DNA of 47,632 nt from Ruminococcus sp. (lineage in GTDB: Bacteria; Bacillota; Clostridia; Oscillospirales; Ruminococcaceae). The position numbers were made by a program, and so were the translations under genes. This document shows positions 1,372-32,879 of the stretch, one piece after another. The notes beneath the pieces were generated by a model. That model had not been told where the DNA came from and ran no database searches. It was given only the letters and a program-made list of their open reading frames with translations. The stretch lies in NCBI GenBank assembly GCA_017461395.1, contig JAFTYF010000039.1:1-47632 (forward strand), read 5' to 3'. Positions within the stretch are counted from its first letter, which is position 1; the number at the start of each line of letters is the position of its first letter.

Positions 1372-3570
1372 ATGAAAAAATTAACAGCATTTTTATTTGC
1401 ACTTACAATGGTATTTACATCTACTGCCTGCGGAGAAAAGAAAAAATCCGACGTCAGCAAACCGCCCGTAGAAGTAACTGTAACACAGACCTGCTACGCA
1501 ATAGAGGAGAAGTCTATTGACCTCAGCGATTTAGCCTATGCCGGTCAGACTGCCGTATACGATGACGGAATATGCCTGTTCTACAACGATTTCAGCAACT
1601 GCACAAGATTTGCACGAACAGACAAGGATTTCAATATCGTTGCTTCCGGCGGACTTGACGGGGTTATAGGTACATACAGCGTCAACAGTGACGGAAGTTT
1701 CGACGCTGTTATTTCTGAAACTGACTACGAATTTGAATACGATGAAAGCGGTGCCATCACCAACTATGAGGAATATTTCGAAAATGCCGTATTTACATTC
1801 CGGCTTGTTTCCTACGACAGCAGCGGAAATGTCCTCAGTGAGTGCGAAATTGAGGAAATCTCCGACTACTACGACGCAGAAATTTCCGGTTCAAAACAGC
1901 TTGTTTCATGCGGTGACGGGAAATTTATCTACAATTTCGGAAGTGGTCTTGCACTTTTCGACAACGAGGGAAAAATTATCGAGATAAACAACGGCGATGA
2001 ATATTATGACTGCTATCTCACAAGTCTGCCCAACGGAAAAATATTGTACAGCAATAGTTTTTCATACGGCTATATGGAAGAAGATACCGTCAAAATCCCC
2101 ACTGACCTTAAATACACTGAAAAGTTCGGTTCAATGTATACACAGGCGATAAAAGGAACAGGCGATTTCATTGCTTACTTCAATCTCAGCGGCGGTTTAT
2201 ATGGTCTTACTGAAAACGATGAAATAATTCTTGTGGTGGATTACAACAAATCGCTTATTTCTGAGGCCTATAATATTTTCCCGATTGACGACGGAAAATT
2301 CGTTATCAGCAATGGCACGCCCACGCTTAAATTATGTACACGCCGTCCCGATGACTATGTTGAAAGCAGAGAACCCATTGAAGTTTGGATGATCGAACGT
2401 GCATCAACTCAGATGCACGATGACGCAAAGGAATTTTCCGCTCTCCATGACAATTACTTTGTAAACGTCAAGGAAAATGTCAAGTATGAAGATGTTCCGG
2501 CTGCAATGCTTACAGGCGACGTTCCGGATGTACTTTATTACAGTAAGACTGGTGATATGATTAGATATACAAATCTCGGCGGTCTTGCTGATCTCACACC
2601 AATGCTTGAAGGCGATACAGGACTTGCAAAGGACGATATTCTGCCGAATCTCCTCGATGCGCTCGAATACAAGGGCGGTATATATACAATTCCTGAGACG
2701 TACAGCATAAAAGCGCTGATAGCGAAAAAGGATTTCATAGGCGATGAGTACCGTGACTGGTCTATTGAGGAATTTATGGAAATATACGACAGCCGTCCGG
2801 AAGGAATGAGTATATTTGAAGAACCATATATGTATCCAAGTCTGCTGGGACAGGATATCTGGATCGACTACATGAATGGCACCTGTAATTATGATTCTGA
2901 GGAATTCATAAGGCTTCTGGAAATAGCTAAAGAAGCTGAAAAAATGAGGGGAGAAATTGACTACGATGATCCGGAATATAACAAAAAGCGTTTTTCTATG
3001 TTAAAAGAAGGAAGAACTATGTTCGGCTCAAACACCATAAATACTCCAACTATATTCATGTTTTTCAGTGATGTCGGTGTGAGAGGAATGAAAATAGATG
3101 ACGTATCATTCCTTAATTCCCCCGAAAGCGGAGGAAAAATATACCTTGACAGCTGCTACTCAATAACATCCGAAGCCAAAAATCCTGACGGTGCATGGAA
3201 ATTTGTTTCCCATGTCCTCACGGAAGAAGAACAAGAACGTGGCGGATATACAGTATGGTCTCATCCCCTGACAAAGAAAGCCTTCGATAGATATCTTGAA
3301 CACTATATCACTCCGCCGGAAGGTCCCGATATAAGCAAGCACAGTATAAATGGTATATCCTACGATGTGGAAATGACCGCATCTGAGGAACAGGTCAAGC
3401 GTCTCGGCGATTTTATCCTCAGCTGTGACGAGCTTGCTTTCTACGACAGAGAAATAGAAACGATTTTTGTATCTGAATATAACCGCTTCCTGAACGATCA
3501 GATAACAGCCGAAGAATGTGCACAGAATTTACAGAGCCGAATTGAGATTCTTCTTGCGGAACAGACATGA
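1372..3570 (+). CDS. Extracellular solute-binding-type lipoprotein, copy 1
   Basis: The protein (732 residues) has a lipoprotein-like signal ending in TSTAC (Cys at about 20). Residues from about 345 to the end look like a family 1 carbohydrate ABC solute-binding fold: a WMIER strand, an AAMLTGDVPDVLYY block and an IYTIPETYSIKALIAKK block are typical of this family. The roughly 300 residues in front are an additional extracellular region rich in beta-strand-like segments that I do not recognise, which makes the protein much longer than the usual 420-450 residues. A strong AGGAGG site precedes the ATG. The next gene is a paralogue with the same architecture. No ABC permease or ATPase gene is adjacent, so the transport partner, if any, is elsewhere, or the protein acts as a sensor or binding protein only. 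Confidence 0.8.
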   Translation: MKKLTAFLFALTMVFTSTACGEKKKSDVSKPPVEVTVTQTCYAIEEKSIDLSDLAYAGQTAVYDDGICLFYNDFSNCTRFARTDKDFNIVASGGLDGVIGTYSVNSDGSFDAVISETDYEFEYDESGAITNYEEYFENAVFTFRLVSYDSSGNVLSECEIEEISDYYDAEISGSKQLVSCGDGKFIYNFGSGLALFDNEGKIIEINNGDEYYDCYLTSLPNGKILYSNSFSYGYMEEDTVKIPTDLKYTEKFGSMYTQAIKGTGDFIAYFNLSGGLYGLTENDEIILVVDYNKSLISEAYNIFPIDDGKFVISNGTPTLKLCTRRPDDYVESREPIEVWMIERASTQMHDDAKEFSALHDNYFVNVKENVKYEDVPAAMLTGDVPDVLYYSKTGDMIRYTNLGGLADLTPMLEGDTGLAKDDILPNLLDALEYKGGIYTIPETYSIKALIAKKDFIGDEYRDWSIEEFMEIYDSRPEGMSIFEEPYMYPSLLGQDIWIDYMNGTCNYDSEEFIRLLEIAKEAEKMRGEIDYDDPEYNKKRFSMLKEGRTMFGSNTINTPTIFMFFSDVGVRGMKIDDVSFLNSPESGGKIYLDSCYSITSEAKNPDGAWKFVSHVLTEEEQERGGYTVWSHPLTKKAFDRYLEHYITPPEGPDISKHSINGISYDVEMTASEEQVKRLGDFILSCDELAFYDREIETIFVSEYNRFLNDQITAEECAQNLQSRIEILLAEQT

Positions 3571-3590
3571 CTTTAAACGGAGGTTATATT

Positions 3591-5843
3591 ATGAAAAAAT
3601 TATCAGCAATTTTACTTGCACTTACGATGCTTCTTACTGCGGCTTGTGCGAAAAAAAGCGGAAACAGCTCCGATATCAGGGAGCAGACTGCACAGGAAAT
3701 TTCCGTTGTTCAGCCGCTTTACAAGGAATCGCAGATAAAAATCGGCGAGCGTTTCAGTGAATGCGTAAGTATTCAGAAATATAGCGGGGGTTATTGCTTC
3801 TTCTACGAGGATTCAAAACATGAACTAAAGCTTGTAAAGCTCGACAGCAATTTCACGGTATCAGAGCCGATTTCTCTCGGTAAATCGCTTTCTGTCGGCT
3901 TGGGAACCATAGTTCACGATGACGGAAGCTTCACTATACTTTCGCCCGTCACCGATTACGAAATAGAATACGATGAATACGGCGTCATGAAAAATTACTC
4001 ATCCTTTATAAGAGAAGGCAGCGTTTCCTTTGTACTGACCGACTACGACAGCTCCGGAAATATAACTGCTCAGCATGATGTTACCGGAATGGAGCAATAC
4101 TACAATCTGAGACAGAGCAGACTTTCAGCGATGATTCCCTATAAAGACGGCGGATATTTAGTTCCTCTCGGATGCGGTGTCGTCATTATCAGCGAGGACG
4201 GAACTGTTACAGACGGACAAGTATACGAGCAGTACCATGCCGATTTCGGACTTGACTGCGACGGAAAGCTTATCATGTCGATGCACAACGGATTCGCTTA
4301 CATGGAGGAGGATTCTCTCAATATTCCGAATGAGCTTATGAATTCCGAAGAATGGATAATGCTCACATCAAGCGCAAAGTCCGGAGAAATGGGCTTCAAG
4401 GCGTTTTTCAAAAAGGATGACGGAATCTACGGGCTTACGGACAGCGGCGAGCTTCTTCATGTCGTGGATTTCAGAGGTTCTCTTATCGACAGTGTAGAGG
4501 TCAATGATTATGTATTCTGCGGCGACGGTCAGTTCCTGGCAGCTGGAATGGAAAGCGATTATCTCACGCTCCACACACGCCGTCCTGACGATTACAAGGA
4601 AAACAGAAAAACAGTTGATTTATGGCAGATTTACGGCGGCGGCGGAGATGGACATGCAACTGCCTTCAACAAGCAAAATGACGATTATCTTGTCAAAATG
4701 GCAATTGATATTAAAAATCTTGAAGACCTCAGCGAGGCGGTGCTTACCGGAGATTCTCCCGATCTGATTTACTACACAAACAGGTCAGTTCTTGACGGAA
4801 TGCTGAATCTTGGTGCGGCGGCTGATATTTACCCGTACATGGAATCCTACGACGGCGTAAAGCGTGATGATATCATGCCTAACGTGCTTGAAGCCTTTGA
4901 TATGGACGGAAAGCTCTATGCCATTCCGGAGAATTTCTGCGTTTCGTCATGGTACGCTAACAGCAATGTCGTTGGTGAGGAATACCGCAACTGGTCGTTT
5001 GATGATATGTATGAGAAATTCGAAAGCTGTCCCGATGATATGTATTTTACAGATGAGCAATACAATAATGATCTTTTCACTACTATATTATCAGATAACT
5101 TAACTCCTTGGGTTGACGCTGAAAACGGTACCTGTAATTTCAACAGCAAGGATTTTGTAAAGCTTCTGGAATTCTGCAAAAATACTAAGAATGCTTTTGC
5201 ACTGGATGTGACAGCTGAATGGGATGCCGAATACCTTAAGAGACAATCAACGGTAATGAACGGAGAACACGCCATGATTACTGTAAATTCCAGTTTAAGA
5301 TATGGAGTTCTTCATGCTGCGGAAGAACTCGCAAGAATGGGACTGCCTTTCTCAGAGGCTTCTATTCTTAATCTGCCCGGCGGAAACGGCAAGGGTATGA
5401 TGACCTGCGACAACTGCTTTACTATCATGAATACCGGCGATTGTCCTGACGGCGCATGGGCATTCGTTTCGTATCTGCTGAGCGATGAAAGGCAAATTCC
5501 TATGGGAGAGGAATTTCCCGGCTGGAACTGGACAAACAAGAAAGCCTTTGAAACCGGACTTAAGAATTCTGTTACCAAAGAACCGCAAACACGAAAAGTA
5601 AGTTCAAACTTAGAAAACGGAGAAATTGTTGAATTTGAATATCCTCTTGTTATTACAGAGGAGGATGTTCAGAGATACAAGGAATTCGTAATGAACTGCA
5701 CAGAGCTTGAATATAGCAATTCTGATATAAACCAAATACTGTGGGAGGAAATCGAGCGATATAAAAACGACGAGATAACAGCCGAAGAATGTGCTGAATT
5801 TATCCAGAGCAGAGTGGAAATTCTTCTTTCTGAGCAGTCATAA
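3591..5843 (+). CDS. Extracellular solute-binding-type lipoprotein, copy 2
   Basis: This 750-residue paralogue of the preceding gene arose by tandem duplication. Shared landmarks include the signal (MKKLSAILLALTM), an RRPDDY motif at the start of the solute-binding domain, the LTGDSPDLIYY block and a C-terminal ITAEECAEFIQSRVEILL segment. The Cys of the lipobox-like LLTAAC is at about residue 17. The ATG at 3591 is chosen over an earlier in-frame start because a GGAGG site lies 7 bases upstream and the signal peptide begins there. The gene starts 20 bases after the stop of copy 1, so the two are co-transcribed. The N-terminal region of about 320 residues is unassigned. A bidirectional terminator follows. 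Confidence 0.8.
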   Translation: MKKLSAILLALTMLLTAACAKKSGNSSDIREQTAQEISVVQPLYKESQIKIGERFSECVSIQKYSGGYCFFYEDSKHELKLVKLDSNFTVSEPISLGKSLSVGLGTIVHDDGSFTILSPVTDYEIEYDEYGVMKNYSSFIREGSVSFVLTDYDSSGNITAQHDVTGMEQYYNLRQSRLSAMIPYKDGGYLVPLGCGVVIISEDGTVTDGQVYEQYHADFGLDCDGKLIMSMHNGFAYMEEDSLNIPNELMNSEEWIMLTSSAKSGEMGFKAFFKKDDGIYGLTDSGELLHVVDFRGSLIDSVEVNDYVFCGDGQFLAAGMESDYLTLHTRRPDDYKENRKTVDLWQIYGGGGDGHATAFNKQNDDYLVKMAIDIKNLEDLSEAVLTGDSPDLIYYTNRSVLDGMLNLGAAADIYPYMESYDGVKRDDIMPNVLEAFDMDGKLYAIPENFCVSSWYANSNVVGEEYRNWSFDDMYEKFESCPDDMYFTDEQYNNDLFTTILSDNLTPWVDAENGTCNFNSKDFVKLLEFCKNTKNAFALDVTAEWDAEYLKRQSTVMNGEHAMITVNSSLRYGVLHAAEELARMGLPFSEASILNLPGGNGKGMMTCDNCFTIMNTGDCPDGAWAFVSYLLSDERQIPMGEEFPGWNWTNKKAFETGLKNSVTKEPQTRKVSSNLENGEIVEFEYPLVITEEDVQRYKEFVMNCTELEYSNSDINQILWEEIERYKNDEITAEECAEFIQSRVEILLSEQS

Positions 5844-5852
5844 TACATTAAA

Positions 5853-5884
5853 AAGGACTATATTGTTTGCGCAATATAGTCCTT
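5853..5884. terminator. Bidirectional terminator between convergent operons
   Basis: A perfect 13-bp stem (5853-5865 with 5872-5884) with a 6-base loop lies between the stop codons of the + strand lipoprotein gene and the - strand thioesterase gene. A-rich and T-rich flanks are short on both sides, so it can serve both transcripts. Confidence 0.8.
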
Positions 5885-5889
5885 AAACA

Positions 5890-6588
5890 TTATATATTCA
5901 GCGTATCCGCTATAATGCGGCATACAGCTTCCTTGTTTTCCTGATAGTAGAAATGTGCTCCTTCAAAATCATGAACAGTGCAGTTTCCGTCAGTCATTCT
6001 CTGCCAGCCGTGCATATCATAGGCTGAAAGCATCTCGTCATCCTTACCGTAAAGCACTGTGATATCGCACGAAAACTTGAATTTCTCCGGCGAAATACAG
6101 CATTTGTCTGCCATACGGACATCAGCGCAGAGTATCCGGCTGAGCATCGCCATGAGTTCCTCAGCACCCTGTGCCGGCTTCGGAAAAAGCGATTTTGAGA
6201 AGAAAAAGTCCGTTATATCCTCATCTGTCGTCGTTTCATCTGATTTGAAGATCATTGCCTTTTCATCAGCACTGCATCTGCCCGACAGAAAAACGTGCTC
6301 AGGCTCAGGAAGTCCCTGTTCTCTTGCCTGACGGACAAGCTCGCACGCAAGGAGAGTTCCCATGCTGTGCCCGAATATCGCATATTCTTCTGACGCTATC
6401 ACATCTCTGTGTTTTTCAAGAAGATCACGGCAGCAGTCCGAAACATCTGTAAACAGCGGTTCAGAGCTTCTTGTGCTTCGTCCGGCTATCTCCATAGGAA
6501 TAACTTTCAGCGACTGCGGCAGAAAACGCTTGAATGAACAGTAGCTTTTTGCAGAACCTCCGGCATGAGGCAGGAAAAACAATACCAT
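5890..6588 (-). CDS. Type II thioesterase (alpha/beta hydrolase)
   Basis: The 232-residue protein is a typical stand-alone thioesterase of the kind that serves polyketide and nonribosomal peptide assembly lines, either removing stalled acyl groups from carrier proteins or releasing product. It has the N-terminal PHAGGSAKSY motif of the family, the nucleophile in GHSMG (Ser75), an Asp in YGKDDEM (183/184) and the His in GAHFYY (212). It is the last gene of the 13-gene minus-strand operon and starts 12 bases after the carrier-protein gene, with a GAGGG ribosome site. Its presence argues for a carrier-protein-based pathway rather than CoA-based beta-oxidation. The substrate cannot be read from the sequence. 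Confidence 0.88.
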   Translation of the reverse strand: MVLFFLPHAGGSAKSYCSFKRFLPQSLKVIPMEIAGRSTRSSEPLFTDVSDCCRDLLEKHRDVIASEEYAIFGHSMGTLLACELVRQAREQGLPEPEHVFLSGRCSADEKAMIFKSDETTTDEDITDFFFSKSLFPKPAQGAEELMAMLSRILCADVRMADKCCISPEKFKFSCDITVLYGKDDEMLSAYDMHGWQRMTDGNCTVHDFEGAHFYYQENKEAVCRIIADTLNI

Positions 6589-6600
6589 TTCTGCCCTCGC

Positions 6601-6849
6601 TTATTCTATCGGAGTACCTTCACTGTTGAGAAGGTCGAACATCTCGCCTACTCTGCTGATAGAAGCAACAGATGAAAGCGGAATATTCAGGCGGAGTGTC
6701 TCTGTAATTTCGCTTCCGAGACCAAAAAGACCGAGAGAGTCAAGGTAAAGATCCTCATAAACGTCTGTATCTTCGTTAATCTCGCCTGCGTCAACTCCTA
6801 CATAATCAGAGATAATCTGCTTGAACTGGTTGAAATCCAAATTATTCAT
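6601..6849 (-). CDS. Acyl carrier protein 1
   Basis: This 82-residue acidic protein has the size and helical pattern of a discrete acyl carrier protein. The phosphopantetheine attachment site is Ser38 in the YLDSLGLFGL segment, which matches the DSL core of the family. The longer in-frame reading would overlap the upstream ligase; the ATG at 6849 has an AAAGGA site in front and gives a normal ACP length. It lies directly after the acyl-AMP ligase gene, so the ligase most likely loads its acyl group onto this carrier. It is clearly different in sequence from the second ACP of the operon, which suggests separate roles for loading and extension (inference). Confidence 0.88.
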   Translation of the reverse strand: MNNLDFNQFKQIISDYVGVDAGEINEDTDVYEDLYLDSLGLFGLGSEITETLRLNIPLSSVASISRVGEMFDLLNSEGTPIE

Positions 6850-6871
6850 ATTTTTATCCTTTCCATATACC

Positions 6872-8428
6872 TTAGTGGTATTCCTTTTTCCTGAGATACT
6901 TGAACTGTATCTTGCCGACATCCTTAGGAAGTTCCTCAACAAGAACTATCTTATCCGGAACCTTATATGCTGAAAGCTTGCCGTCAAAGAATTTTGCTAT
7001 CTCGCCTCTGGTGATTCTTTCATCGCCCTTAGGCTGGATATATGCAACGATCTGCTGACCTATTACTGGATGCGGCTCATCAGTTACGGCTGCTGCTGCA
7101 ACCTTCTCGTATGTGAGGAGACAAGCTTCAACTTCCTCCGCATGAACGAGGTTTCCGCCTCTCTTTATAATACGCTTGCTTCTTCCGGCAAAACGAACAA
7201 TACCGTCAGGAAGTCTGCTTACAAGATCGCCTGTGGAGAACCAGCGGCGTCCCTGATCGTCTGTGTGAATCTTTTCTGCTGAAAGCTCGGGATTACCGAA
7301 ATATTCAGTGATAACTCCGGCTGTATATACGCAGAGTTCGCCTGTACCGCCTTCGGGAACTTCATTTCCTTCCTCGTCAAGAACACGGATATCAGTGAAC
7401 GGAAGCTTTCTGAAATCGCTTGGATCCTTATCGCCGTCAATTGCTGAATCCCATACAACCATTGTTGTAGTTTCGGACGATCCGATAACATTTATAACAC
7501 GGATGCCGAGTTTCTGAACGAATACATCAGCTATCTCCTTAGGAAGAACCTCGCCGGCAAAATAGCTTGTATGAACGCTTGAAAGATCATACTTGTCAAA
7601 ATCCGGTGTGGAAAGAAGTACTTTCGCAAGTGTGGATGTAAGCTGAATTACGCTTACCTTGTACTTCTGTACTGTTTCAAGGAACGTCTGCGGATTGAAC
7701 TGCGGCTGATACATAACTGTTCCGCCCTTTACAGTTGTCTGGAGTCCCATACCGAAGCCGCCCTGATGATAGAGCGTCATTCCGAGCATCATGACCTCGT
7801 TCTCGCCGAAGCCGAGATGTGTTCCCATATCGTCCTGTGTTTCAAGGAATCCGTAATAGGGTACTGAAAGCACCTTAGGATTTCCGGTGCTTCCTGATGT
7901 ACAGGCAAGCGACATAACGTGATCTTCGCCTGGAATATATTCCACGCACTCCTCACCGCAGTATTCAGAGAAGAACTTTTCTGCTGAAATAAACGGCTCT
8001 GCAAGCTCAATATCACTTTCTGTGAAGCATACCACCTTGTCAAGCGCAACCTCAGCCGGAACTACCTGCTGCATTGCGCCGATGATATTGTTGCTGCGGT
8101 ATTTTTCAGCCGCAAAGCATATCTTGACGCTTGTTGACGGAAGAAGCTGGAGAAGCTCCATTGTACCGCTCTGCGGATCAATAGGTGCCGGCTGTGCTCC
8201 GATGCGGACTGCCGCCCAGAATACAAGATACCAGTCAATGCTGTTGGGCATAACGATTCCCACTTTGTCATCAGCACCGATTCCGAGCTTCTGCATTCCC
8301 GAAGCAATTACAGCTGTTTTCTGCATGAATTCACCGTATGTAAGAGTATCGTCATCTATGCGGAGAAGAACCTTATCGGGATTCTTCTGAGCATATTCAC
8401 GGTAATAATCAAAAAAAGTTTTTTTCAC
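6872..8428 (-). CDS. Acyl-AMP ligase / acyl-CoA synthetase family enzyme
   Basis: The protein (518 residues) belongs to the ANL superfamily, which adenylates a carboxylic acid and transfers it to a thiol. Visible motifs are the P-loop TSGSTGNPK, the GSSETT motif, STGDLVSRLPDG and the C-terminal hinge GRSKRIIKRGG; a GKIQFKYL segment near the end carries the expected catalytic Lys. The start is a GTG with a GAGG site 8 bases upstream, 9 bases after the hydrolase stop. With an ACP gene immediately downstream and a ketosynthase in the operon, it probably supplies the starter acyl unit to a carrier protein. Whether the substrate is a fatty, aryl or short branched acid cannot be told by eye. It could alternatively make an acyl-CoA. 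Confidence 0.88.
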   Translation of the reverse strand: MKKTFFDYYREYAQKNPDKVLLRIDDDTLTYGEFMQKTAVIASGMQKLGIGADDKVGIVMPNSIDWYLVFWAAVRIGAQPAPIDPQSGTMELLQLLPSTSVKICFAAEKYRSNNIIGAMQQVVPAEVALDKVVCFTESDIELAEPFISAEKFFSEYCGEECVEYIPGEDHVMSLACTSGSTGNPKVLSVPYYGFLETQDDMGTHLGFGENEVMMLGMTLYHQGGFGMGLQTTVKGGTVMYQPQFNPQTFLETVQKYKVSVIQLTSTLAKVLLSTPDFDKYDLSSVHTSYFAGEVLPKEIADVFVQKLGIRVINVIGSSETTTMVVWDSAIDGDKDPSDFRKLPFTDIRVLDEEGNEVPEGGTGELCVYTAGVITEYFGNPELSAEKIHTDDQGRRWFSTGDLVSRLPDGIVRFAGRSKRIIKRGGNLVHAEEVEACLLTYEKVAAAAVTDEPHPVIGQQIVAYIQPKGDERITRGEIAKFFDGKLSAYKVPDKIVLVEELPKDVGKIQFKYLRKKEYH

Positions 8429-8437
8429 GTCTTAACC

Positions 8438-9553
8438 TCACTTAATTATTCTCTCTGCTATAAAGTCAGCAGCAATATGCTTTACCCAGTGGAACTGCTC
8501 TCCTACCGGCATTGCGTGCATAATAGTTTCCTCAGAAACGTAAGCCGGCTTTTCATCAACGAAAATCTTTTCTTTATAGCCGTCAGCTCTGTCGAAAAGT
8601 CGCATTGAAGCGTCAGTATCCATCCAGTTGTCGTCAGGACTGTATACGAGAAGATAATCAGAACTGAGCTTTCCTTCAAGAAGTACATTCATTCTTTTAA
8701 TGAAATAATCTCCGTACTGCGAGGAAGCCCACTTGCCTCTCTTCATCCAGATCGGGATAGAATCCATATCAGCAAACCCCATGAGAAGTGGGAAAAGTGT
8801 TACGCAGCACTTTGTTGCAGGACGCTTTACAGCAGCTCTGAATGCATATCCGCCGCCCATGCAGAGTCCGAAATCAGCAACGTTATCGCTGTCGATATCC
8901 TCACGGCTGTCTATCCAGCGTGAAATTCCCTCGAATGCTGCTTCTATCTGAGGACCGCAGCATTTCAGACCGTTCCAGATTACGGACGCACCGGCACCGG
9001 GCATATCTACGCAGAGAACTGCGGCTCCGCGTTCGTTCATGGGCTCAGCAAGCATTTCAAGCTCTTCCTTGCAGCTTCCGATTCCGGAATATGTCACAAC
9101 AAGAGGATAGTTACCTTTGCTTCCGTCATCGGGATAATGCAGATATGCCGGAATTTTTCCGTACTCAGTATCAATTTCAACATATTCGATTTTATTGGGA
9201 CATACAGCCGTATATTTACGATAGCTTTCTTCAAGTCCGGAATAAATCTCCTTCTTCTTGTCGATATCGTCTGTATTTATCATGAAGCAGGCATAGTGAC
9301 ACTGCATTGCAAGTCTGTAGTAAGCTCTTGCAGATATACGGTTGTTTTTCTGCACAGCCTGCTCGGCAAGGGTGTTATATTTTTCAATTTTCTGTGCCCA
9401 CTCGCCGAGCCATACTGTCTGGATCTGCTTTCCGCTTTTCACCTTGATTCCGTCTATTTTCTTAAGTACATATTCAAGATCAAACGGATCAGCACCGAAT
9501 AAAAGCGAGCGTGTTGCAACGGGATTAAGTAAATCTCTGATAGACCATTTCAT
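8438..9553 (-). CDS. FrsA/Ayg1-like alpha/beta hydrolase with Cys nucleophile
   Basis: The protein (371 residues) has an N-terminal helical region (about 1-125) followed by an alpha/beta-hydrolase domain, an arrangement like FrsA-type hydrolases. That group includes fungal Ayg1-type enzymes, which shorten or release polyketides by C-C bond cleavage. The nucleophile elbow is DFGLCMGGG with Cys231 where most members carry Ser; dienelactone hydrolases also use Cys in a G-x-C-x-G elbow. Asp307/308 (YSPDDN) and His355 (EQFHW) are plausible remaining triad members. The gene lies between the tautomerase and the acyl-AMP ligase. By context it could cleave, hydrolyse or lactonise an acyl intermediate; this is inference. 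Confidence 0.75.
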   Translation of the reverse strand: MKWSIRDLLNPVATRSLLFGADPFDLEYVLKKIDGIKVKSGKQIQTVWLGEWAQKIEKYNTLAEQAVQKNNRISARAYYRLAMQCHYACFMINTDDIDKKKEIYSGLEESYRKYTAVCPNKIEYVEIDTEYGKIPAYLHYPDDGSKGNYPLVVTYSGIGSCKEELEMLAEPMNERGAAVLCVDMPGAGASVIWNGLKCCGPQIEAAFEGISRWIDSREDIDSDNVADFGLCMGGGYAFRAAVKRPATKCCVTLFPLLMGFADMDSIPIWMKRGKWASSQYGDYFIKRMNVLLEGKLSSDYLLVYSPDDNWMDTDASMRLFDRADGYKEKIFVDEKPAYVSEETIMHAMPVGEQFHWVKHIAADFIAERIIK

Positions 9554-9575
9554 AAATCAAAGCCTTCTCTTTCTT

Positions 9576-9941
9576 TTATTTTTTACTGGGCGGAGTGTAT
9601 TTCCATGCAGATTCCCTCGTCATTTCTGTAAACTGCATATATACTCTGTTGGGATTAACTCCTGTATAACGCTGAATTATTTCCAGCATTCTGTCCGCAA
9701 AGATATCAAGCCACTCTTTTCTTTCATCAGCATCTGAAAAATCCCTCAGATAGCGGAATTCGCCGAAAAATACTGTATCCTCGCTCTGATTCATAAGCAT
9801 ATGAAAATCATCGAGCATTACCATTACAGCCGGAAGCGGCTTTTCGATAAGCTCTGCCATTGCAGAAGCTATCTCGTTCATGAAATCAGTTCTTTTCTGC
9901 GCTTCAAAGCGGTAGTTTGTTTTCATCTGACAAATAGGCAT
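9576..9941 (-). CDS. MIF-family tautomerase-like protein
   Basis: At 121 residues, the protein matches macrophage-migration-inhibitory-factor-type tautomerases in length and landmarks. Pro2 follows the initiator Met and would be the catalytic N-terminal base after Met removal. A TN pair follows early (residues 8-9), then KPLPAVMVML corresponds to the conserved KP...V.V strand, NPNRVYMQFTEM to the conserved RVY strand, and SAWKY to the C-terminal Trp segment. The family catalyses keto-enol tautomerisation. Its GAGGAGG site overlaps the stop region of the ketosynthase gene, so translation is coupled to it. Placement next to a ketosynthase suggests action on a beta-keto, dienol or pre-aromatic acyl intermediate (inference). 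The homology was recognised by eye, not by a search. Confidence 0.75.
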   Translation of the reverse strand: MPICQMKTNYRFEAQKRTDFMNEIASAMAELIEKPLPAVMVMLDDFHMLMNQSEDTVFFGEFRYLRDFSDADERKEWLDIFADRMLEIIQRYTGVNPNRVYMQFTEMTRESAWKYTPPSKK

Positions 9942-9955
9942 ATTCAGTTACCTCC

Positions 9956-11167
9956 TCAGCCGTTGTATCTGCGGAATACGAGCGTAGAATTATGTCCGCC
10001 GAATCCGAATGAATTGGAAATCGCTACATTTACATCTGCTTTTTTTGCCTCGTTGGGAACATAATCAAGATCAAGCTCTTCATCCGGCTCGTCATAATGG
10101 AGAGTAGGAGGAAGAATTCCTGTCTCTATCGCTTTTACGCAGGCAATGGCTTCGAGTGCACCGCAGGCTCCGAGAGTATGTCCGATAGCAGCCTTGATAG
10201 AGGAAACAGAAAGTTCCTTTGCGTGATCTCCGAAAACGCTGTGAATAGCCTTTGTCTCGTAAAGGTCATTGAGTGATGTTGATGTTCCGTGAGCGTTTAT
10301 ATAATTTACTTCCTCAGGTGAAACTGCGCCATCCTCAAGAGCCTTGCGCATTGCATCCGCCATACCAATTCCGTCTGTCTGGGGAGCTGTAAGATTGAAC
10401 GCCTCACAGGTAGCAGAAGCACCGGCAAGCTCGCAGTAAATTCTTGCTCCGCGCTTTTTAGCAGATTCCTCAGCTTCAAGGACAACAGTTCCGCCGCCCT
10501 CGCCCATAATGAAGCCGTCACGGTTCTTAGTGAAGGGACGTGCTGCCGTTTCGGGATCGGGATTTACAGACATCGCAAGAAGCTGATTGAAGCCTGTAAT
10601 AGTATCGTGAGAAACCATTCCGGATGTACCGCCGGCAATTACCATATCGCAGAGACCGCTTTCTATCATCTGCTTGCCAAGTGCGATTGCATATGCAGAT
10701 GAAGCACAGGCAGTTGAAAGGCTGAAGTTAGGTCCCTGAAAACCGTATTTCAGAGCAATAAGCGCCGGAAGTCCGTTGGGCATATTTTTAAGTGTAAGAT
10801 TGTTCCTTTTCTCGCACTCTGCGTCCTCATAAACAGTATCTATAACACCGAAGATAACGCCGACCTTAGAGCCGTCATACTCAGCCATATCAACTCCACA
10901 GTCAGTAACAGCTTCTGCAGCGGAAGCAAGTCCGAACTGAGTAGTAGCTGTTGTTGCACCAAGCTGACGCTTCTTCCAGTATTTTGAAATTTCTGTCTTG
11001 TATGCTTCATCAACCTCTGCGGCAACGGTTGTTTCATGCTCCTCAACGGATATGCGCTTGATTTTCTTCATGCCGCATTTTCCGCTGACAAGACCGTCCC
11101 AGAATGCAGGCATAGTCGCACCGATGGATGTCACAGCACCCATTCCTGTAACTACAACTTTTCTCAT
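9956..11167 (-). CDS. Beta-ketoacyl-ACP synthase II-like ketosynthase (FabF-like)
   Basis: The protein (403 residues) performs decarboxylative Claisen condensation of a malonyl-type extender with an acyl chain. The full Cys-His-His triad of the KAS I/II class is present: Cys154 in STACASS, His293 in NAHGTST and His330 in IKAAIGHTLGA. The C-terminal GFGGHNSTLVFRR motif is also typical. Length is normal for FabF. The operon has no partner chain-length-factor gene and none of the usual housekeeping fab genes (fabG, fabZ, fabK, accB), so this is probably a pathway-dedicated ketosynthase rather than the cell's main one. A GGAG site lies about 10 bases upstream of the ATG. Confidence 0.93.
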   Translation of the reverse strand: MRKVVVTGMGAVTSIGATMPAFWDGLVSGKCGMKKIKRISVEEHETTVAAEVDEAYKTEISKYWKKRQLGATTATTQFGLASAAEAVTDCGVDMAEYDGSKVGVIFGVIDTVYEDAECEKRNNLTLKNMPNGLPALIALKYGFQGPNFSLSTACASSAYAIALGKQMIESGLCDMVIAGGTSGMVSHDTITGFNQLLAMSVNPDPETAARPFTKNRDGFIMGEGGGTVVLEAEESAKKRGARIYCELAGASATCEAFNLTAPQTDGIGMADAMRKALEDGAVSPEEVNYINAHGTSTSLNDLYETKAIHSVFGDHAKELSVSSIKAAIGHTLGACGALEAIACVKAIETGILPPTLHYDEPDEELDLDYVPNEAKKADVNVAISNSFGFGGHNSTLVFRRYNG

Positions 11168-11203
11168 ATTACTTTCACTCCGTTCTGAATGATCGACGTG
11201 CGA

Positions 11204-12325
11204 TCAGACATAAATTTTGTCAAAATCAGCTTTTTCAGCTGCGATGTATACTTCAAAGCCTGTTTCTTCGTAAAGACGATCAAGCTCTGACTTCACTGTT
11301 TCATAGCCCATCGCGCTGTAATATTCCGGAAGCTTTTCTGCAAGTCCGAGAACATCAGCAGCAGCGTCAAGAAGCGCTTCTGTTTCACATCCCGATTCCT
11401 TTGCAGCAAACACGGCTGCGTTGAGTATCAGAGCAATAACACCTCTCGCAAATCCGCTTGTATCGCAGCCGGAGGATGTCTGTACATCCTTCATGTAATC
11501 AAGAAGCTCGCCGCTTCCTGCCGGATATCCATTTTCTATCCAGCTATTCATTATTTCATATCCGCAGCGCAGAAGCGACGCATTCCGGCTGATACGGAAT
11601 CCCTCCGGATTCTTAGCCATAAGTCCGAGACTTACTGTGTCAAGTACTGCAAAAGGTCCGGCAAATGGGAAATATTCCTTTACTGCGCTGTCGAATTCCT
11701 CCGCTGTCGCACCGGCTTCTCCGGCAGTGCGGATAGAATGTGAAATACAGAGCGCAAGTATCTGATTGAGATAAATGTGATATTCTCCGGCAAAGCGCAG
11801 TGCACGTTTTCCGGAAGCTGTTATCAGAGCTTCTGCCTTGTCAAGAACCTCCGGTGTATTTTCAGGGAGATAATTGAGTTCAACAAATCCGGAAAGCTTT
11901 ACCGGATAGAAGAAATGCATTCCGAGACAGCGCTCAGGGCGGGAATTTCCACTGAAAACCTCAGCGATATCAAGTGAGGATGTGTTCGTAAGAAGCAGAG
12001 CTTCCGCCGGAACTATCTTATCAAGCATTGAAAAGATATCCTTTTTGACGTTCATATCCTCGAAAACAGATTCAATAACGATATCACAGCTGGAAAGCGC
12101 ATTGTAATCGTCAGTGAATCGGAAGGACTTGCATTTTGCGTCGTAAACCTCCTGAGTGATCCTCTTGCGCTTGAGCTGTCGTGCAAGAAGCTTTTCTATA
12201 CCCTCACGGCTTTTTTCCGTATCATGCTGAGATATGACAGTAATATCTGCGTCCTTCACTGTATCAAAAAGAAGTGAGAAAATCTCGCTTCCCATTTTTC
12301 CGTAGCCCACAATACCAATATTCAT
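11204..12325 (-). CDS. 3-hydroxyacyl-CoA dehydrogenase-like oxidoreductase
   Basis: The 373-residue protein has an N-terminal Rossmann fold with GYGKMG (residues 7-12), the Asp-Ile-Val-Ile-Glu-Ser block at 81-86, the NTSSLDI motif and His137 in GMHFFYPV, where the usual motif is HFFNP. A C-terminal helical domain follows. The family interconverts 3-hydroxyacyl and 3-ketoacyl thioesters with NAD(H). In this operon it is the only visible candidate for reduction of the beta-keto group, replacing the usual FabG-type ketoreductase. Its ATG overlaps the stop codon of the upstream crotonase by one base (TAATG), implying translational coupling. Whether it works on ACP- or CoA-bound substrates is unknown. 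Confidence 0.88.
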   Translation of the reverse strand: MNIGIVGYGKMGSEIFSLLFDTVKDADITVISQHDTEKSREGIEKLLARQLKRKRITQEVYDAKCKSFRFTDDYNALSSCDIVIESVFEDMNVKKDIFSMLDKIVPAEALLLTNTSSLDIAEVFSGNSRPERCLGMHFFYPVKLSGFVELNYLPENTPEVLDKAEALITASGKRALRFAGEYHIYLNQILALCISHSIRTAGEAGATAEEFDSAVKEYFPFAGPFAVLDTVSLGLMAKNPEGFRISRNASLLRCGYEIMNSWIENGYPAGSGELLDYMKDVQTSSGCDTSGFARGVIALILNAAVFAAKESGCETEALLDAAADVLGLAEKLPEYYSAMGYETVKSELDRLYEETGFEVYIAAEKADFDKIYV

Positions 12326-13029
12326 TACACTGCCTCCGTTTCAAGAAAACGTCTGTAGAATCCAGCCGCCTTTTCAGCTGTGAATTCCTCACCCGTACTG
12401 CTGATGAAGTTTATAAGCTGTTTTGCACGGCTGAAGCCTGCCTTCTTGCCGACTACCTCGTTTGCCCAGAGAAGCTCTCCAGCTCTTTCAGCAGAGAAAA
12501 GCTCGCCGGACACAACTATATCAAAGGCATTCTGCATTCCGGTGTGAGTGATGCTTCGTGCGATTCCTCCGAGTGCCGGAAGGATTCCGAAAGTGCTCTC
12601 AGGCTGACCTATACGTGCATTCTTCTCAGCAATGCGGAAATGACTGTTAACTGCGATTTCGCTTCCCGAACCGATGCAGAAGCCGGTAACTACGCTGACT
12701 ACAGGAAACGGAAGGTCATACAGGAATGTGAAGAAGTGCTTCTGTCTGTGGTGTCCCTCAGGTATTTTTCCTGTCCTGCGAAGCTCCGGAAGTTCCTCAG
12801 AGGAACGCTCGCTCAGTGATTCAACATCTGCGCCAACGCTGAAATGTCTGCCGCCGCCGCAGATAATCATGCCTTTCCACTTCTTTTCAGAAGCAAGACT
12901 TTCCACCTCAGCCATAGCGGCTTCATATCCCTCAAAAAACGACGCTGTCATGAGGTTGTTCCCTTCAGACTGCATCGTAAGTATTAGAATACCGTCATCT
13001 TCTGTTATCACAAACGCTTTTTCATTCAT
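12325..13029 (-). CDS. Crotonase / enoyl-CoA hydratase family protein (ECH-b)
   Basis: The protein (234 residues) has the two oxyanion-hole loops of the crotonase fold, GGGRHFSVGAD and GFCIGSGSEIA, and a Glu in the QPESTFGILP helix start that corresponds to a catalytic Glu of hydratases. Length is slightly short for the family (about 250-260). The ATG lies inside the end of the upstream gene, overlapping by 8 bases (ATGAATGA). It probably dehydrates a 3-hydroxyacyl thioester or isomerises a double bond; the operon carries a second crotonase, so the two may act at different positions or chain lengths. Confidence 0.87.
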   Translation of the reverse strand: MNEKAFVITEDDGILILTMQSEGNNLMTASFFEGYEAAMAEVESLASEKKWKGMIICGGGRHFSVGADVESLSERSSEELPELRRTGKIPEGHHRQKHFFTFLYDLPFPVVSVVTGFCIGSGSEIAVNSHFRIAEKNARIGQPESTFGILPALGGIARSITHTGMQNAFDIVVSGELFSAERAGELLWANEVVGKKAGFSRAKQLINFISSTGEEFTAEKAAGFYRRFLETEAV

Positions 13030-13597
13030 CTGACTGTTCCTCCGTTTTCTGTGCCATCAGTGCGTAAAATCCGTTTGATTCTGCCGAAAGAACTGCTTCT
13101 GTACCACCCTTTGAAGCGGCTTTGAGACAGCCTGTCAGTATACTGAGCTGTCCGGATGTTCTTCCTGAGCAGATATGTTCAAGATATGATACAGCTGCCG
13201 CAGAAAATCCCTCATCATCAGAGAGAACTGTCACGAAATTCGGAGCATTTTCAGTTTTGCCGGCAGAAAGCATCTCGTATGCTGTATCTCCGCAGAGAAA
13301 TCTGTATCTTTCATCTGCTTTTGCAAAAGCCGCAGGATAAGGATTTCCGCCAAGACGCACATCAAAAAGCGACATCAGGTTATAGGAAAAACGTCCTGTA
13401 TCCTCTGCCGCAATAACTGTGATAAACGGCACATCCATGAACCATACTGCTGTCTCCTCTGAGACTGAATTTTCCATATCGTCTGCATGGACAAGAATTA
13501 CCGGCATATCGCCAAGCCTGTCCCTTTCGGCATAAAGCTCGCCAAGAGCCTTACAGCCGGTTATTTCTGTAAATCCGTTATGATTCTGAATAATCAT
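13022..13597 (-). CDS. Degenerate crotonase-like protein of unknown function
   Basis: This protein of about 191 residues sits between a thioesterase and a crotonase and is translationally coupled to both. A middle segment (FMDVPFITVIAAEDTG then FDVRLGG) can be laid over the second oxyanion-hole region of crotonases, but the glycine-rich loops and catalytic Glu residues are gone. It may be a non-catalytic structural partner of the flanking crotonases, or a fold I do not recognise. The start is uncertain: a GTG at 13606 gives 194 residues but sits directly on the GGAG site, whereas the ATG at 13597 has that GGAG 10 bases upstream. Function is unassigned. Confidence 0.6.
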   Translation of the reverse strand: MIIQNHNGFTEITGCKALGELYAERDRLGDMPVILVHADDMENSVSEETAVWFMDVPFITVIAAEDTGRFSYNLMSLFDVRLGGNPYPAAFAKADERYRFLCGDTAYEMLSAGKTENAPNFVTVLSDDEGFSAAAVSYLEHICSGRTSGQLSILTGCLKAASKGGTEAVLSAESNGFYALMAQKTEEQSDE

Positions 13598-13991
13598 CCG
13601 TACCACGCTCCATTATATCTGTGATATCTGCGGGAATCGTACATATCATGCGGTTTTCGTCAACATACGCAAGTTTGCCTGTTATCCTGCATGAACGCTT
13701 TCCTGTCGTAAGGCTGGAAATAATATGGCGGAACTTCGTGATATTCTGCGAAAATTCCCATTCCGTCGTCACCAGAACTTCCTCCATGTGTTTAAGCTCG
13801 TTCATATAGCGGATATTGTTTTCAAGGATGACAGGAAAAAGCTTATGCTCCTGTAAATGCGCAAGCGCACCGCATTTTCTGAAAAAATCCCATTTTGCCG
13901 CTTCGGCATATTGCAGATATACTGCATTATTGACGTGCCCGAAGGAGTCAAGCTCGTATCCCCGAACAGTCAGTGTATATGTACTTTTCAT
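13578..13991 (-). CDS. Hotdog-fold acyl thioesterase (4HBT-like)
   Basis: The 137-residue protein shows the signature of 4-hydroxybenzoyl-CoA-type thioesterases, YELDSFGHVNNAVYLQYAE, with Asp15 as the likely catalytic residue. These enzymes hydrolyse acyl-CoA or acyl-ACP thioesters and often release polyketide or enediyne-type chains. It directly follows the ECH-a gene (3-base gap) and overlaps the next gene. With the type II thioesterase at the operon end, the cluster has two different thioesterase folds, one of which probably performs release and the other editing; which does which cannot be decided. Confidence 0.87.
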   Translation of the reverse strand: MKSTYTLTVRGYELDSFGHVNNAVYLQYAEAAKWDFFRKCGALAHLQEHKLFPVILENNIRYMNELKHMEEVLVTTEWEFSQNITKFRHIISSLTTGKRSCRITGKLAYVDENRMICTIPADITDIMERGTDDYSES

Positions 13992-13994
13992 CTT

Positions 13995-14723
13995 CTACCC
14001 TTCGTTTATCTGTGCAAGAACCTTTTCAAACTGTCCCTTTGAGGGATCCTCAGCGCCGTCAAGAGCATTGTTCATCGTCTGGATGATGCACTCTATCTGA
14101 AGCTTTGATTTTCCTTCTGCAAGCTTCTGAACGAACTCCATACATTCCGGAAATGCATCCTTTTCCTCAGAGATTCCGGTGATAAGACCACAGTCAAGAG
14201 CCTGCTGTGCCGTTATCATATCTCCGTTCAGGCACATCATAAGAGCCTTCTGTCTGCCGAGAAGCTTCTGCATACGCTCCATTCCGCCCATTCCGGGAAC
14301 AACGCCGTGCATTATCTCAGTGAGTCCGAGATAAGCCTTAGGGGACGCTATTCTGAACTGACAACTAAGCGCGATTTCAAGACCTCCGCCGAAGCATCCG
14401 CCGTTTATAGCTGCAGCTGTGAGTATCGGCAGGCGTTCTATCGTACGGAGAAGCTCACGGGATTTTTCAAGCTTTTCAGTTATTGAGCTTCGTGCTGACG
14501 CATCGGAGAAAAGAGATACATCCGCACCATGAGAAAAATGGCGTCCTTTTCCTCTTATCACGAGGGAATTCACCTCCGGATGTTCGCTTAAAAATCCGAG
14601 AAGCACATCCTTTTCGATGAATTCCGGCTCTGTAAGAAGATTCTTCGCTCCGTTTTCAAGTGTAAGAACTGCCGTATTTTTTTCCGCATAGAGAGTAGAA
14701 ATATTGCTTGTTACTATATTCAT
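13995..14723 (-). CDS. Crotonase / enoyl-CoA hydratase family protein (ECH-a)
   Basis: The protein (242 residues) has well-formed crotonase motifs: GKGRHFSHGAD and GGCFGGGLEIALSCQFRIAS for the two oxyanion-hole elements, and LGLTEIMHGVVPGMGG with a Glu at the usual position. It is closer to the family consensus than the other crotonase of the operon. The ATG shares one base with the stop of the ACP-2 gene (TGATG). Probable role: dehydration of a 3-hydroxyacyl intermediate or double-bond shifting, possibly on ACP-2. Crotonases are also used for decarboxylation in polyketide beta-branching, but no HMG-CoA-synthase-like gene is present here. Confidence 0.88.
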   Translation of the reverse strand: MNIVTSNISTLYAEKNTAVLTLENGAKNLLTEPEFIEKDVLLGFLSEHPEVNSLVIRGKGRHFSHGADVSLFSDASARSSITEKLEKSRELLRTIERLPILTAAAINGGCFGGGLEIALSCQFRIASPKAYLGLTEIMHGVVPGMGGMERMQKLLGRQKALMMCLNGDMITAQQALDCGLITGISEEKDAFPECMEFVQKLAEGKSKLQIECIIQTMNNALDGAEDPSKGQFEKVLAQINEG

Positions 14724-15025
14724 CAGAGATTTACGATATCGTTGCCGTACTGGTAGATCTTGCAGATCATGTCAACAACGTCCTTCATTGTGTCCATAGG
14801 AGTTTTGAGCATATACTTGCCGATAGACTGAAGCTTTACGTCGATGTCATACTTTTCAGCTGTCATTTCGATAAGCTCAACGAACATAAGAGAATCGCTT
14901 CCGAGATCTTCCTGCGGATTGGATTCCATTGTGATCTCGTCTCTGTCGATCTCACATTCGTCTGCGTAATAATCAAATATCATGTCCTGAATTTCCTGTC
15001 TGATTTCCTCTGTAATCTCTCTCAT
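14723..15025 (-). CDS. Acyl carrier protein 2
   Basis: This 100-residue acidic protein carries the phosphopantetheine motif DLGSDSLMFVEL with Ser45. It is longer than ACP-1 and less similar to housekeeping AcpP (about 77 residues). The ATG at 15025 has a near-perfect AGGAGG site 8 bases upstream; upstream in-frame codons overlap the acyltransferase gene and would add a non-ACP segment. The position directly after the acyltransferase suggests that this carrier receives the extender (malonyl-type) unit, while ACP-1 next to the ligase receives the starter (inference). Confidence 0.9.
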   Translation of the reverse strand: MREITEEIRQEIQDMIFDYYADECEIDRDEITMESNPQEDLGSDSLMFVELIEMTAEKYDIDVKLQSIGKYMLKTPMDTMKDVVDMICKIYQYGNDIVNL

Positions 15026-15071
15026 TGAGATTTCCTCCTTTTTAGCTGTACGCCGTAATTTTAATAATGCC

Positions 15072-15974
15072 TTATACCTCATCGAAGGTGTAAATTCTGC
15101 CCTTTCGTCTGCTGATGCGCGAGAATTTTCCGACTGCACCATTTGCGCTTACATCGAAGAATTCCGTTACACCAAGCTCTTCAAGCTTTTTCAGCGCAAG
15201 ATCCCAGCGTATCGGGTTGAGAATGTTGATCTGGTTTTCGTGCCTGATATCCTCACCGTCTGTCATAATACGCCTGTCAAAAATCGACAGGATAGGATAA
15301 TCCGGAGCACTATATTCCCCCACTGCACAGAACTCAACATACTCTTGGGAATGTCTCTCGATCATGGGATGATGATATGCAAGTCCGATATTGAAGGGGA
15401 TCACCTTGATTGCTCCTGCCTCCTGTGCGTCAAGCAGAAGCTGTTTTACTGCATCCTCTCTGCCGGAAATCATAGTGCATATCCTTGAATTTGCGCTTCC
15501 CACGATAACTTCATCGGGTGAATATTTTTTTTCTGCGATAAGCTCGTTCACATCGTCGATGCTCATTCCGATGATAGTACCCATATCCTGCTTTTCATCT
15601 GATATACTCAGAGAATGCATAGTTGCACGGTTCATCATGATTATCTCGTGTGCAAACTCGTGGCTTACAGAGCCGAAACACGCACTTATGCTGACGATTC
15701 CGGAGCTGTGTCCCATTCCGATATCGGGAATTATCCCCTTTTCGATGTAGTATTCATACACCACACGGTCTGATATCAGGGAAGTAAGCCATTCTGCCGC
15801 AAGCCTGTCGATAGGTGCATTTTCAGAAAGCTCCTCTTTCAGTCCAAGTCTTGCGAACTCATCATGCTGATAACTGCGGTGCTTTTCGAGCATCTGCGGA
15901 GTCATCGCCTGAAAAAGCTTTTCCGGTTTAGTTCCGATGCCATTAAATAGAAACGCCTTTTTGAATGTACTCAC
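15072..15974 (-). CDS. FabD-like acyltransferase (discrete, malonyl-type AT)
   Basis: The protein (300 residues) looks like a free-standing malonyl-CoA:ACP transacylase. The nucleophile is Ser90 in GMGHSSG; Arg116 in MMNRATMH matches the Arg that binds the malonyl carboxylate; His201/202 in AYHHPMI matches the catalytic His. The N-terminal FNGIGTKP replaces the usual FPGQGAQ, so the oxyanion-side Gln is not in its usual place. It is the first gene of the operon, started by a GTG with a GAGG site 7 bases upstream, below a good promoter. It probably loads extender units onto the operon's ACP(s). Confidence 0.85.
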   Translation of the reverse strand: MSTFKKAFLFNGIGTKPEKLFQAMTPQMLEKHRSYQHDEFARLGLKEELSENAPIDRLAAEWLTSLISDRVVYEYYIEKGIIPDIGMGHSSGIVSISACFGSVSHEFAHEIIMMNRATMHSLSISDEKQDMGTIIGMSIDDVNELIAEKKYSPDEVIVGSANSRICTMISGREDAVKQLLLDAQEAGAIKVIPFNIGLAYHHPMIERHSQEYVEFCAVGEYSAPDYPILSIFDRRIMTDGEDIRHENQINILNPIRWDLALKKLEELGVTEFFDVSANGAVGKFSRISRRKGRIYTFDEV

Positions 15975-16041: not shown

Positions 16042-16070
16042 ATTATACTATATATTATCATTTTTGTCAC
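16042..16070 (-). promoter_or_regulatory. Promoter of the 13-gene acyl/polyketide operon
   Basis: On the minus strand GTGACA (16065-16070) and TATAAT (16042-16047) are spaced by exactly 17 bases. The predicted start leaves a leader of about 60 bases before the GTG of the acyltransferase gene. No obvious operator palindrome was seen, and no regulator gene is linked. Confidence 0.8.
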
Positions 16071-16172: not shown

Positions 16173-16204
16173 AAAAGGATACCACCGTAGTGATATCCCT
16201 TTTT
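16173..16204 (-). terminator. Terminator of the ribose operon
   Basis: On the minus strand an imperfect stem (16190-16204 with 16173-16185) is followed by a T-rich run. It lies just downstream of the rbsK stop and insulates the acyl/polyketide operon from the ribose operon. Confidence 0.75.
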
Positions 16205-26137: not shown

Positions 26138-26138
26138 A

Positions 26139-32852: not shown

Positions 32853-32879
32853 AATAAACACCTCTCCGGCAAAAATTCA

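Follow-up and report, generated by a model that had tools for sequence, protein, structure and literature searches.

We describe a thirteen-gene operon of Ruminococcus sp. (GenBank assembly GCA_017461395.1), which lies on the minus strand between positions 15974 and 5890 of contig JAFTYF010000039.1; the whole stretch analysed, 47,632 nucleotides, is referred to as the window. The operon is real, conserved and of new composition, and it is widespread among cellulolytic Ruminococcus and their relatives. Its gene content most likely specifies an iterative polyene synthase with β-oxidation-type reduction. We propose that the operon codes for a polyene-type polyketide synthase (PKS) built from discrete proteins, whose most likely product is the yellow, cellulose-binding pigment of the ruminococci, a reading to which we give a probability of roughly 0.4. 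The operon would be a leading candidate for the pigment of R. flavefaciens; of the readings with support in the evidence, this one goes furthest.

Conservation of the operon in cellulolytic ruminococci

A preliminary description of the window had listed 13 packed, partly overlapping genes, and all 13 open reading frames (ORFs) were found at the coordinates given in Table 1, overlapping or separated by short gaps. They encode, in this order, an acyltransferase-like (AT-like) protein, an acyl carrier protein (ACP1), a crotonase-fold enzyme (ECH1), a hotdog thioesterase, a pseudo-crotonase (dECH), a second crotonase (ECH2) and a 3-hydroxyacyl dehydrogenase (HCDH), followed by a ketosynthase (KS), a MIF-like protein, an alpha/beta hydrolase, an acyl-adenylating ligase, a second carrier protein (ACP2) and a type II thioesterase. 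The genes are predicted to form one transcription unit.

Related loci were collected with peptide patterns of the window KS, using one genome per species, and the best 80 of 389 were kept. Twenty-eight of these (L068-L096 without L071) were non-Ruminococcus loci with a good match in the KS only and were left out. Among the remaining 52 Ruminococcus-type loci, 34 contain all 13 genes in the same order. Twelve loci are cut by contig ends, two of which (L033 and L040) also have no match to the pseudo-crotonase, and three are uncut but incomplete: L041 has no AT-like gene, L047 has no hotdog thioesterase gene, and L048 carries a dECH-ECH2 fusion. The last three (L045, L049 and L064) are mini-loci, in which the AT-like, dECH, ECH2 and KS genes stand together, joined in L045 by the hydrolase gene; their genomes also yielded L033, L030 and L032. 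Among the 88 ketosynthases of a phylogenetic tree, those from operons and mini-loci (58 rows, including some repeats) form one exclusive group with weak support (0.59), within which the mini-locus KS proteins form a group of their own (0.97). Seven of eight loci from other genera, four genera of the family being represented, also have all 13 genes, with the hydrolase gene ahead of the KS gene in two of them; two of the eight, L101 and L102, are probably repeats of L042 and L048. The flanks vary among the eight loci for which ORFs were compared.

Named carriers are R. flavefaciens ATCC 19208, FD-1, MA2007, ND2009, Y1, YAD2003, SAb67 and YL228 as well as R. albus KH2T6 and AR67. A sample of the genus gave the operon ligase in 39/100 genomes, including 21 of the 56 good ones, and a profile of the MIF family matched 10/297 genomes, or 5/126 genera, of the bacterial family. 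Among 391 genomes of the class, five of them from other genera of the family, the same profile found only the window's own genome. dN/dS ratios against three relatives lie at 0.03-0.18 in ten genes, while the pseudo-crotonase has 0.17-0.35; the ACPs were left out of this comparison, one ratio was not computable, and dS exceeds 1 in most pairs with L021 and L054. The shared gene order and these ratios go beyond what chance would give. A plasmid-borne copy was also considered and rejected: tblastn with the KS against 72,556 plasmid records gave no match at 1e-100.

Predicted enzymes and chemistry

Families were assigned to the 13 window proteins with Pfam and NCBIfam profiles, and catalytic residues were counted in the window protein plus those homologue rows that passed a length filter (rows kept/found: AT-like protein 44/46, ACP1 24/48, ECH1 45/51, hotdog thioesterase 46/47, dECH 40/50, ECH2 49/51, HCDH 47/50, KS 49/52, MIF-like protein 46/46, hydrolase 46/47, ligase 41/44, ACP2 30/43, type II thioesterase 41/41). 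The serine of the DSL motif is present in 25/25 rows of ACP1 and 30/31 rows of ACP2. Both catalytic glutamates are found in every row of ECH1 (46/46) and ECH2 (50/50), as are Asp15 of the hotdog thioesterase (47/47), His137, Glu149 and Asn187 of HCDH (48/48), Cys154, His293 and His330 of the KS (50/50), and Pro2 of the MIF-like protein (47/47), which would be the N-terminal catalytic proline after removal of the methionine. In the type II thioesterase, Ser75 and His212 each differ in a single row (41/42). As far as can be judged from sequence, the enzymes of the operon are probably active.

The preliminary description had read the operon as a discrete-enzyme acyl or polyketide system without FabG, FabZ or an enoyl reductase, and the family profiles agree with this. 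No match to adh_short or FabA/FabZ was found among the 13 proteins, nor did family profiles reveal an enoyl reductase, an acyl-CoA dehydrogenase or a thiolase there; none of the 13 is a multidomain protein, the longest having 518 amino acids. The top-scoring families of HCDH and the crotonases are those of β-oxidation. The KS, whose 441 bits lie below the fabF equivalog cut-off of 493.75, is the single PF00109 protein of the operon, and neither a KASIII protein nor a chain-length factor was found among the 13. A classical type II PKS with a KS-alpha/chain-length-factor pair was therefore rejected, as was an HMG-CoA-synthase beta-branching cassette, since no HMG-CoA synthase homologue occurs among the 13 proteins. 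The operon is also not the strain's fatty acid synthase. A complete set for that purpose lies on contig C35, where ACP, AccA, AccC, FabZ, AccB, FabF, FabG, FabK, FabH and FabD all exceed their NCBIfam cut-offs (10/10), which rules out one of the refuting findings named in the preliminary description; the C35 FabF and the operon KS are 39% identical.

The gene product between the hotdog thioesterase and ECH2, earlier called a degenerate crotonase, has no sequence match in Pfam, NCBIfam or the PDB. When its AlphaFold model (pLDDT 87.9) was compared with the PDB, crotonases came out on top, with 31 chains at E <= 0.001 and only crotonase-type proteins among the best 35 rows, at TM-scores of only 0.46-0.63. 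Only 6 columns are invariant among 20 sequences, and shorter forms occur in other species. The model supports the crotonase fold, and we refine the assignment to pseudo-crotonase; in one relative (L048), the gene is joined with that of ECH2 in a fusion. ECH2 in turn is fused to HCDH in L058 and L057. These fusions, together with the mini-loci, suggest that the proteins are tied into one machine, and we infer a complex linked to the KS, with HCDH and the ECH2/dECH pair standing in for the ketoreductase and dehydratase.

We propose the following route, which rests on protein families and, for the reduction and dehydration, on intact catalytic residues. In the first step, the ligase would activate a carboxylic acid, probably an aromatic one, and load it onto ACP2, while the AT-like enzyme may move or edit acyl groups; that the ligase is accompanied by an ACP of its own points to a dedicated starter acid. 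Housekeeping FabD would then malonylate ACP1, and the single FabF-like KS would add two carbons per turn. HCDH is predicted to reduce the resulting 3-keto group, and ECH1 and the ECH2/pseudo-crotonase pair would remove water to leave a trans double bond. Due to the absence of an enoyl reductase from the operon, each turn should contribute one conjugated double bond. The last step is the weakest: the MIF-like protein might tautomerise a keto/enol intermediate, the AntI/Ayg1-like cysteine enzyme might release or trim the chain, and the two thioesterases might release or edit it. The product would be an oxygen-sensitive, yellow, cellulose-binding pigment ("yellow affinity substance"), made by a route distinct from the type I PKS of celluxanthene synthesis in C. 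thermocellum.

The enzymes of the reductive steps could also point to a different role. One might speculate that the operon runs reverse β-oxidation or lipid tailoring, producing or modifying the unsaturated acyl groups of envelope lipids or fatty acids, and that HCDH and the crotonases act as they do when fatty acids are oxidised. The β-oxidation scores of HCDH and the crotonases would suit such a role, as would the ECH2-HCDH fusion in L058, which follows the order of FadB, and the combination of hotdog and type II thioesterases, both frequent in acyl metabolism. We regard this as unlikely, as the operon has two dedicated ACPs, an AT-like enzyme, a FabF-type KS and an adenylating ligase, contains no acyl-CoA dehydrogenase, thiolase or enoyl reductase, and shows a patchy, accessory distribution.

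The preliminary description had listed the AT-like protein as an acyltransferase of a full loading and extension set. The family assignment stands, at a PF00698 score slightly below the Pfam cut-off (32.1 against 32.7 bits), and malonyl loading is doubtful. The protein retains the catalytic Ser and His, but the malonyl-binding Arg present in the strain's own FabD is replaced by N, H, C or T in 45/45 rows, and because of this replacement the protein may not load malonate; an Arg is found one residue after the aligned position in 38/45. It is quite improbable, in our estimate, that the operon is a starter-modifying cassette which draws its extender from FabD, carries out only one or two extensions and feeds another system, with the AT-like protein and the type II thioesterase acting as hydrolases for proofreading. 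AT-like acyl hydrolases occur in trans-AT systems, and the absence of the FabD-type Arg from all 45 rows would fit such a function; six named isolates, however, have no other PKS ketosynthase that could be fed.

The MIF-like protein scores 18.8 bits against a Pfam cut-off of 22, and a PDB search with the profile of its family retrieves MIF chains at 3.6e-10. In three relatives (G001, G007 and G020), one stop codon falls within the aligned stretch of the MIF match. For the hydrolase, described earlier as having a cysteine nucleophile, Cys231 is found in 47/47 rows within the motif GLCMG, in place of the Ser of GxSxG, and its kinship can now be refined to the AntI, Ayg1, DHPON hydrolase and FrsA enzymes. 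Its model, in which residues 1-21 are of low confidence, has the fold with an N-terminal helical domain seen in these proteins. It thus resembles the trimming enzymes AntI of Photorhabdus and Ayg1p/Wdyg1p in fold and differs from them in using Cys for Ser as the nucleophile. VIA-align placed DHPON hydrolase, AntI, a peptidase and FrsA no more than 2 Z units apart, and hence the fold does not settle the reaction of the hydrolase.

Table 1. Genes of the operon and predicted transcription signals, with positions in the window and the basis of each assignment
Feature	Position	Strand	Basis or remark
AT-like acyltransferase	15072..15974	-	PF00698 32.1 bits; fabD 88.8 vs cut-off 260.9
ACP1	14723..15142	-	PF00550; true start probably downstream of listed ATG
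ECH1, crotonase-fold hydratase/dehydratase	13995..14723	-	PF00378 1.1e-31
Hotdog (4HBT/YbgC-type) thioesterase	13578..13991	-	PF13279 2.3e-16
Pseudo-crotonase dECH, probable ECH2 partner	13022..13606	-	crotonase fold by model; fused to ECH2 in L048
Crotonase ECH2	12325..13029	-	top NCBIfam score FadB alpha
HCDH, 3-hydroxyacyl dehydrogenase in place of ketoreductase	11204..12325	-	PF02737 1.1e-40
FabF-like KS	9956..11167	-	TIGR03150 441 bits
MIF-like tautomerase-superfamily protein	9576..9941	-	PDB profile match 3.6e-10
AntI/Ayg1/FrsA-type alpha/beta hydrolase, Cys231 nucleophile	8438..9553	-	FrsA-like by profile; structural comparison
Acyl-adenylating ligase, His221-Gln222 at substrate-specificity position	6872..8428	-	PF00501 4.8e-62
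ACP2	6601..6942	-	PF00550 4.9e-07; listed from TTG, true start probably downstream ATG
Type II thioesterase	5890..6588	-	PF00975 3e-29
Promoter-like site GTGACA-17-TATAAT (predicted)	16042..16070	-	11/12 consensus matches; top site of scan
Terminator-like hairpin closing upstream ribose operon	16173..16202	-	13 pairs then T-run
Terminator-like hairpin 3' of last gene	5853..5884	-	13 pairs then T-run

The yellow pigment and cellulose digestion

R. flavefaciens is named for its yellow pigment. Type II aryl polyene synthases and other highly reducing type II synthases are made of a discrete KS, ACP and enzymes for reduction and dehydration, use a ligase-activated starter and lack an enoyl reductase; the operon is like them in all of this, and unlike them it has HCDH and crotonases instead of a FabG-type ketoreductase and a FabZ-type dehydratase and no chain-length factor. 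The FadB/FadJ multienzyme of β-oxidation is similar in that ECH2 adjoins HCDH, with a same-order fusion in L058, and in that the best NCBIfam score of ECH2 is to FadB, but in the window the two are separate proteins linked to a KS and ACPs, presumably acting on ACP and in the synthetic direction. The third comparison is with the celluxanthene and flavoaffinin clusters (cex and faf) of Clostridium (Acetivibrio) thermocellum, which, in the available excerpts describing them, share with the operon a cellulolytic, anaerobic Firmicutes host and genes for an adenylating ligase, an ACP and an alpha/beta hydrolase; the polyene likeness lies in the acetate-built cex/faf pigment. By these published descriptions, rather than by sequence comparison, cex is set apart by its type I iterative PKS CexF, its two KASIII proteins and a linked phosphopantetheinyl transferase (PPTase), in contrast to the discrete proteins and one FabF-type KS of the operon, which has neither KASIII nor PPTase. 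It is plausible, with the odds leaning against it, that cellulolytic ruminococci evolved a cellulose-affinity polyene pigment of their own, separately from the type I route in C. thermocellum, by means of a discrete-enzyme synthase in which a FadB-derived complex of HCDH, crotonase and pseudo-crotonase works on ACP instead of a ketoreductase and dehydratase. In that case, yellow affinity substances would be a convergent trait of bacterial cellulose digestion.

Ishida et al. (2025, PMC12144888) report that a type I PKS makes the yellow affinity substance in C. thermocellum and that R. flavefaciens DSM 25089 lacks both a cex-like cluster, the only kind of gene cluster known for such pigments, and celluxanthenes, which leaves its yellow pigment without known genes. 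According to an excerpt of PMC9785684, many of the cellulolytic ruminococci show a yellow or orange colour, whose intensity roughly follows cellulolytic ability; titles in the reference list of PMC2844368 concern the yellow affinity substance in R. flavefaciens and tie the pigment to cellulases, and passages from reviews (including PMC8865330) mention a yellow pigment in this species. A carotenoid route to the pigment in the named isolates was rejected on the one family tested, phytoene/squalene synthase (PF00494), which was found in 0/11 genomes.

Only two PF00109 ketosynthases occur in R. flavefaciens YAD2003, MA2007, Y1 and YL228 and in R. albus KH2T6 and AR67, six of the ten named isolates; one of the two is the KS of the operon, and the second is presumably FabF. 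With a specific thirteen-gene candidate in isolates that have few or no rival ketosynthases, the pigment question becomes directly testable. If the proposed chemistry is correct, the operon would also be an example of a PKS that took on β-oxidation enzymes as its reductive loop. The preliminary description had called the operon one of no known type. This is right as to composition: the open-access literature yielded no characterised cluster with these genes and no description of this thirteen-gene cluster, subscription papers lying outside the search. It missed, however, the breadth of the operon among cellulolytic Ruminococcus and its fit to an unexplained yellow pigment.

The association with cellulose digestion was assessed through GH48. 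The MIF and GH48 surveys, covering 297 genomes each, were taken as one set on the agreement of the genomes listed, a comparison that leaves 267 and 242 of the 297 outside it. GH48 was found in 10/10 MIF-positive genomes of the family against 25/287 of the others (35/297 overall), giving Fisher probabilities of 1.5e-10 by genome and 8.2e-6 by genus, uncorrected for relatedness. All 56 good genomes of the genus have GH48, which makes it useless as a discriminator within the genus. The window's own genome has two GH48 places (G000:C13 and G000:C70), one of them cut by a contig end, and the host is thus probably cellulolytic.

Several observations weigh against the pigment assignment. As the Fisher tests ignore the shared ancestry of cellulolytic genera, they establish an association only. 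Within the genus, GH48 is present without the operon ligase in 35 of the 56 good genomes, and with GH48 in 56/56 and the ligase in 21/56, cellulolysis evidently does not need the operon; conversely, 4 of the 39 ligase-bearing genomes have no GH48 match, all of them less than 80% complete. R. albus KH2T6 and AR67 carry the operon, although this species is usually described as lacking yellow pigment. On the chemical side, every turn falls to one KS, whose chain-length partner was not found in the operon. The ligase has His-Gln in 42/42 rows at the substrate-specificity position, where amino-acid domains have Asp; it matches nothing in the PDB at 1e-50, and at 1e-30 aryl-acid, amino-acid and acyl ligases are mixed, so that no substrate can be predicted.

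Other ketosynthases count against the assignment as well. R. flavefaciens ATCC 19208, FD-1, ND2009 and SAb67 have 3, 7, 6 and 21 PF00109 matches, the extra ketosynthase of ATCC 19208 sitting in a 2358-aa frame. A second PKS-like cluster lies in the window's own genome on contig C33 (L099, 1-19901, continuing to 38044 of the contig) and comprises an ACP, a KS and a KS-like, chain-length-factor-like partner, two short-chain dehydrogenase/reductase (SDR) proteins, hotdog and FabA-like proteins, two to three FAD oxidoreductases, a metallo-beta-lactamase-fold protein, ABC/MacB-like exporter genes and a PPTase. None of the named R. flavefaciens and R. albus isolates has a close match to the KS of this cluster. 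In SAb67, one contig (G127:C14) carries 18 of the PF00109 matches in frames reaching 3096 aa, which make up a large modular PKS.

Given these points, it is possible, at odds we would put distinctly below even, that the same iterative, ligase-primed unsaturated chemistry leads to a colourless or unrelated metabolite, such as a trimmed and cyclised aromatic, a lactone or an antibiotic, other genes being behind the pigment. The hydrolase falls together with AntI and Ayg1, described in an excerpt of PMC11165489 as trimming and cyclising polyketides, and a tautomerase would suit keto/enol or ring chemistry. A colourless product would also agree with the patchiness of the operon within cellulolytic genomes and with its presence in R. 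albus, which is usually distinguished from R. flavefaciens by the absence of yellow colour (excerpt of PMC8865330); one isolation paper, again in excerpt, reports yellow colonies in both species. What speaks for the pigment instead is the GH48 association, together with four R. flavefaciens isolates that have neither a ketosynthase beyond the presumed FabF nor a phytoene/squalene synthase.

Transcription signals and surroundings

The whole scan gave 21 promoter-like sites against 16.8 +/- 4.4 in shuffled sequence and 12 terminator-like sites against 9.0 +/- 2.9; with totals this near to the background, the candidates listed in Table 1 stand out by position and score only. An Rfam scan of the window at gathering thresholds for an RNA regulator returned a single tRNA. 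As the preliminary description had stated, no PPTase, exporter or regulator is linked: none lies within the operon between its terminator-like hairpins, and the PPTases of the genome are on contigs C36 and C33.

A gene for a solute-binding protein converges on the operon beyond its 3' hairpin, and positions 1372-5843 hold two neighbouring large extracellular proteins of the solute-binding type, beside a GDSL lipase-like protein. On the opposite strand, about 9 kb from the operon, the shikimate-pathway genes for dehydroquinate (DHQ) synthase and EPSP synthase, in a row with a third ORF (25094-28395), are probably unrelated to it. An MBOAT-family O-acyltransferase is encoded at 31449-32861.

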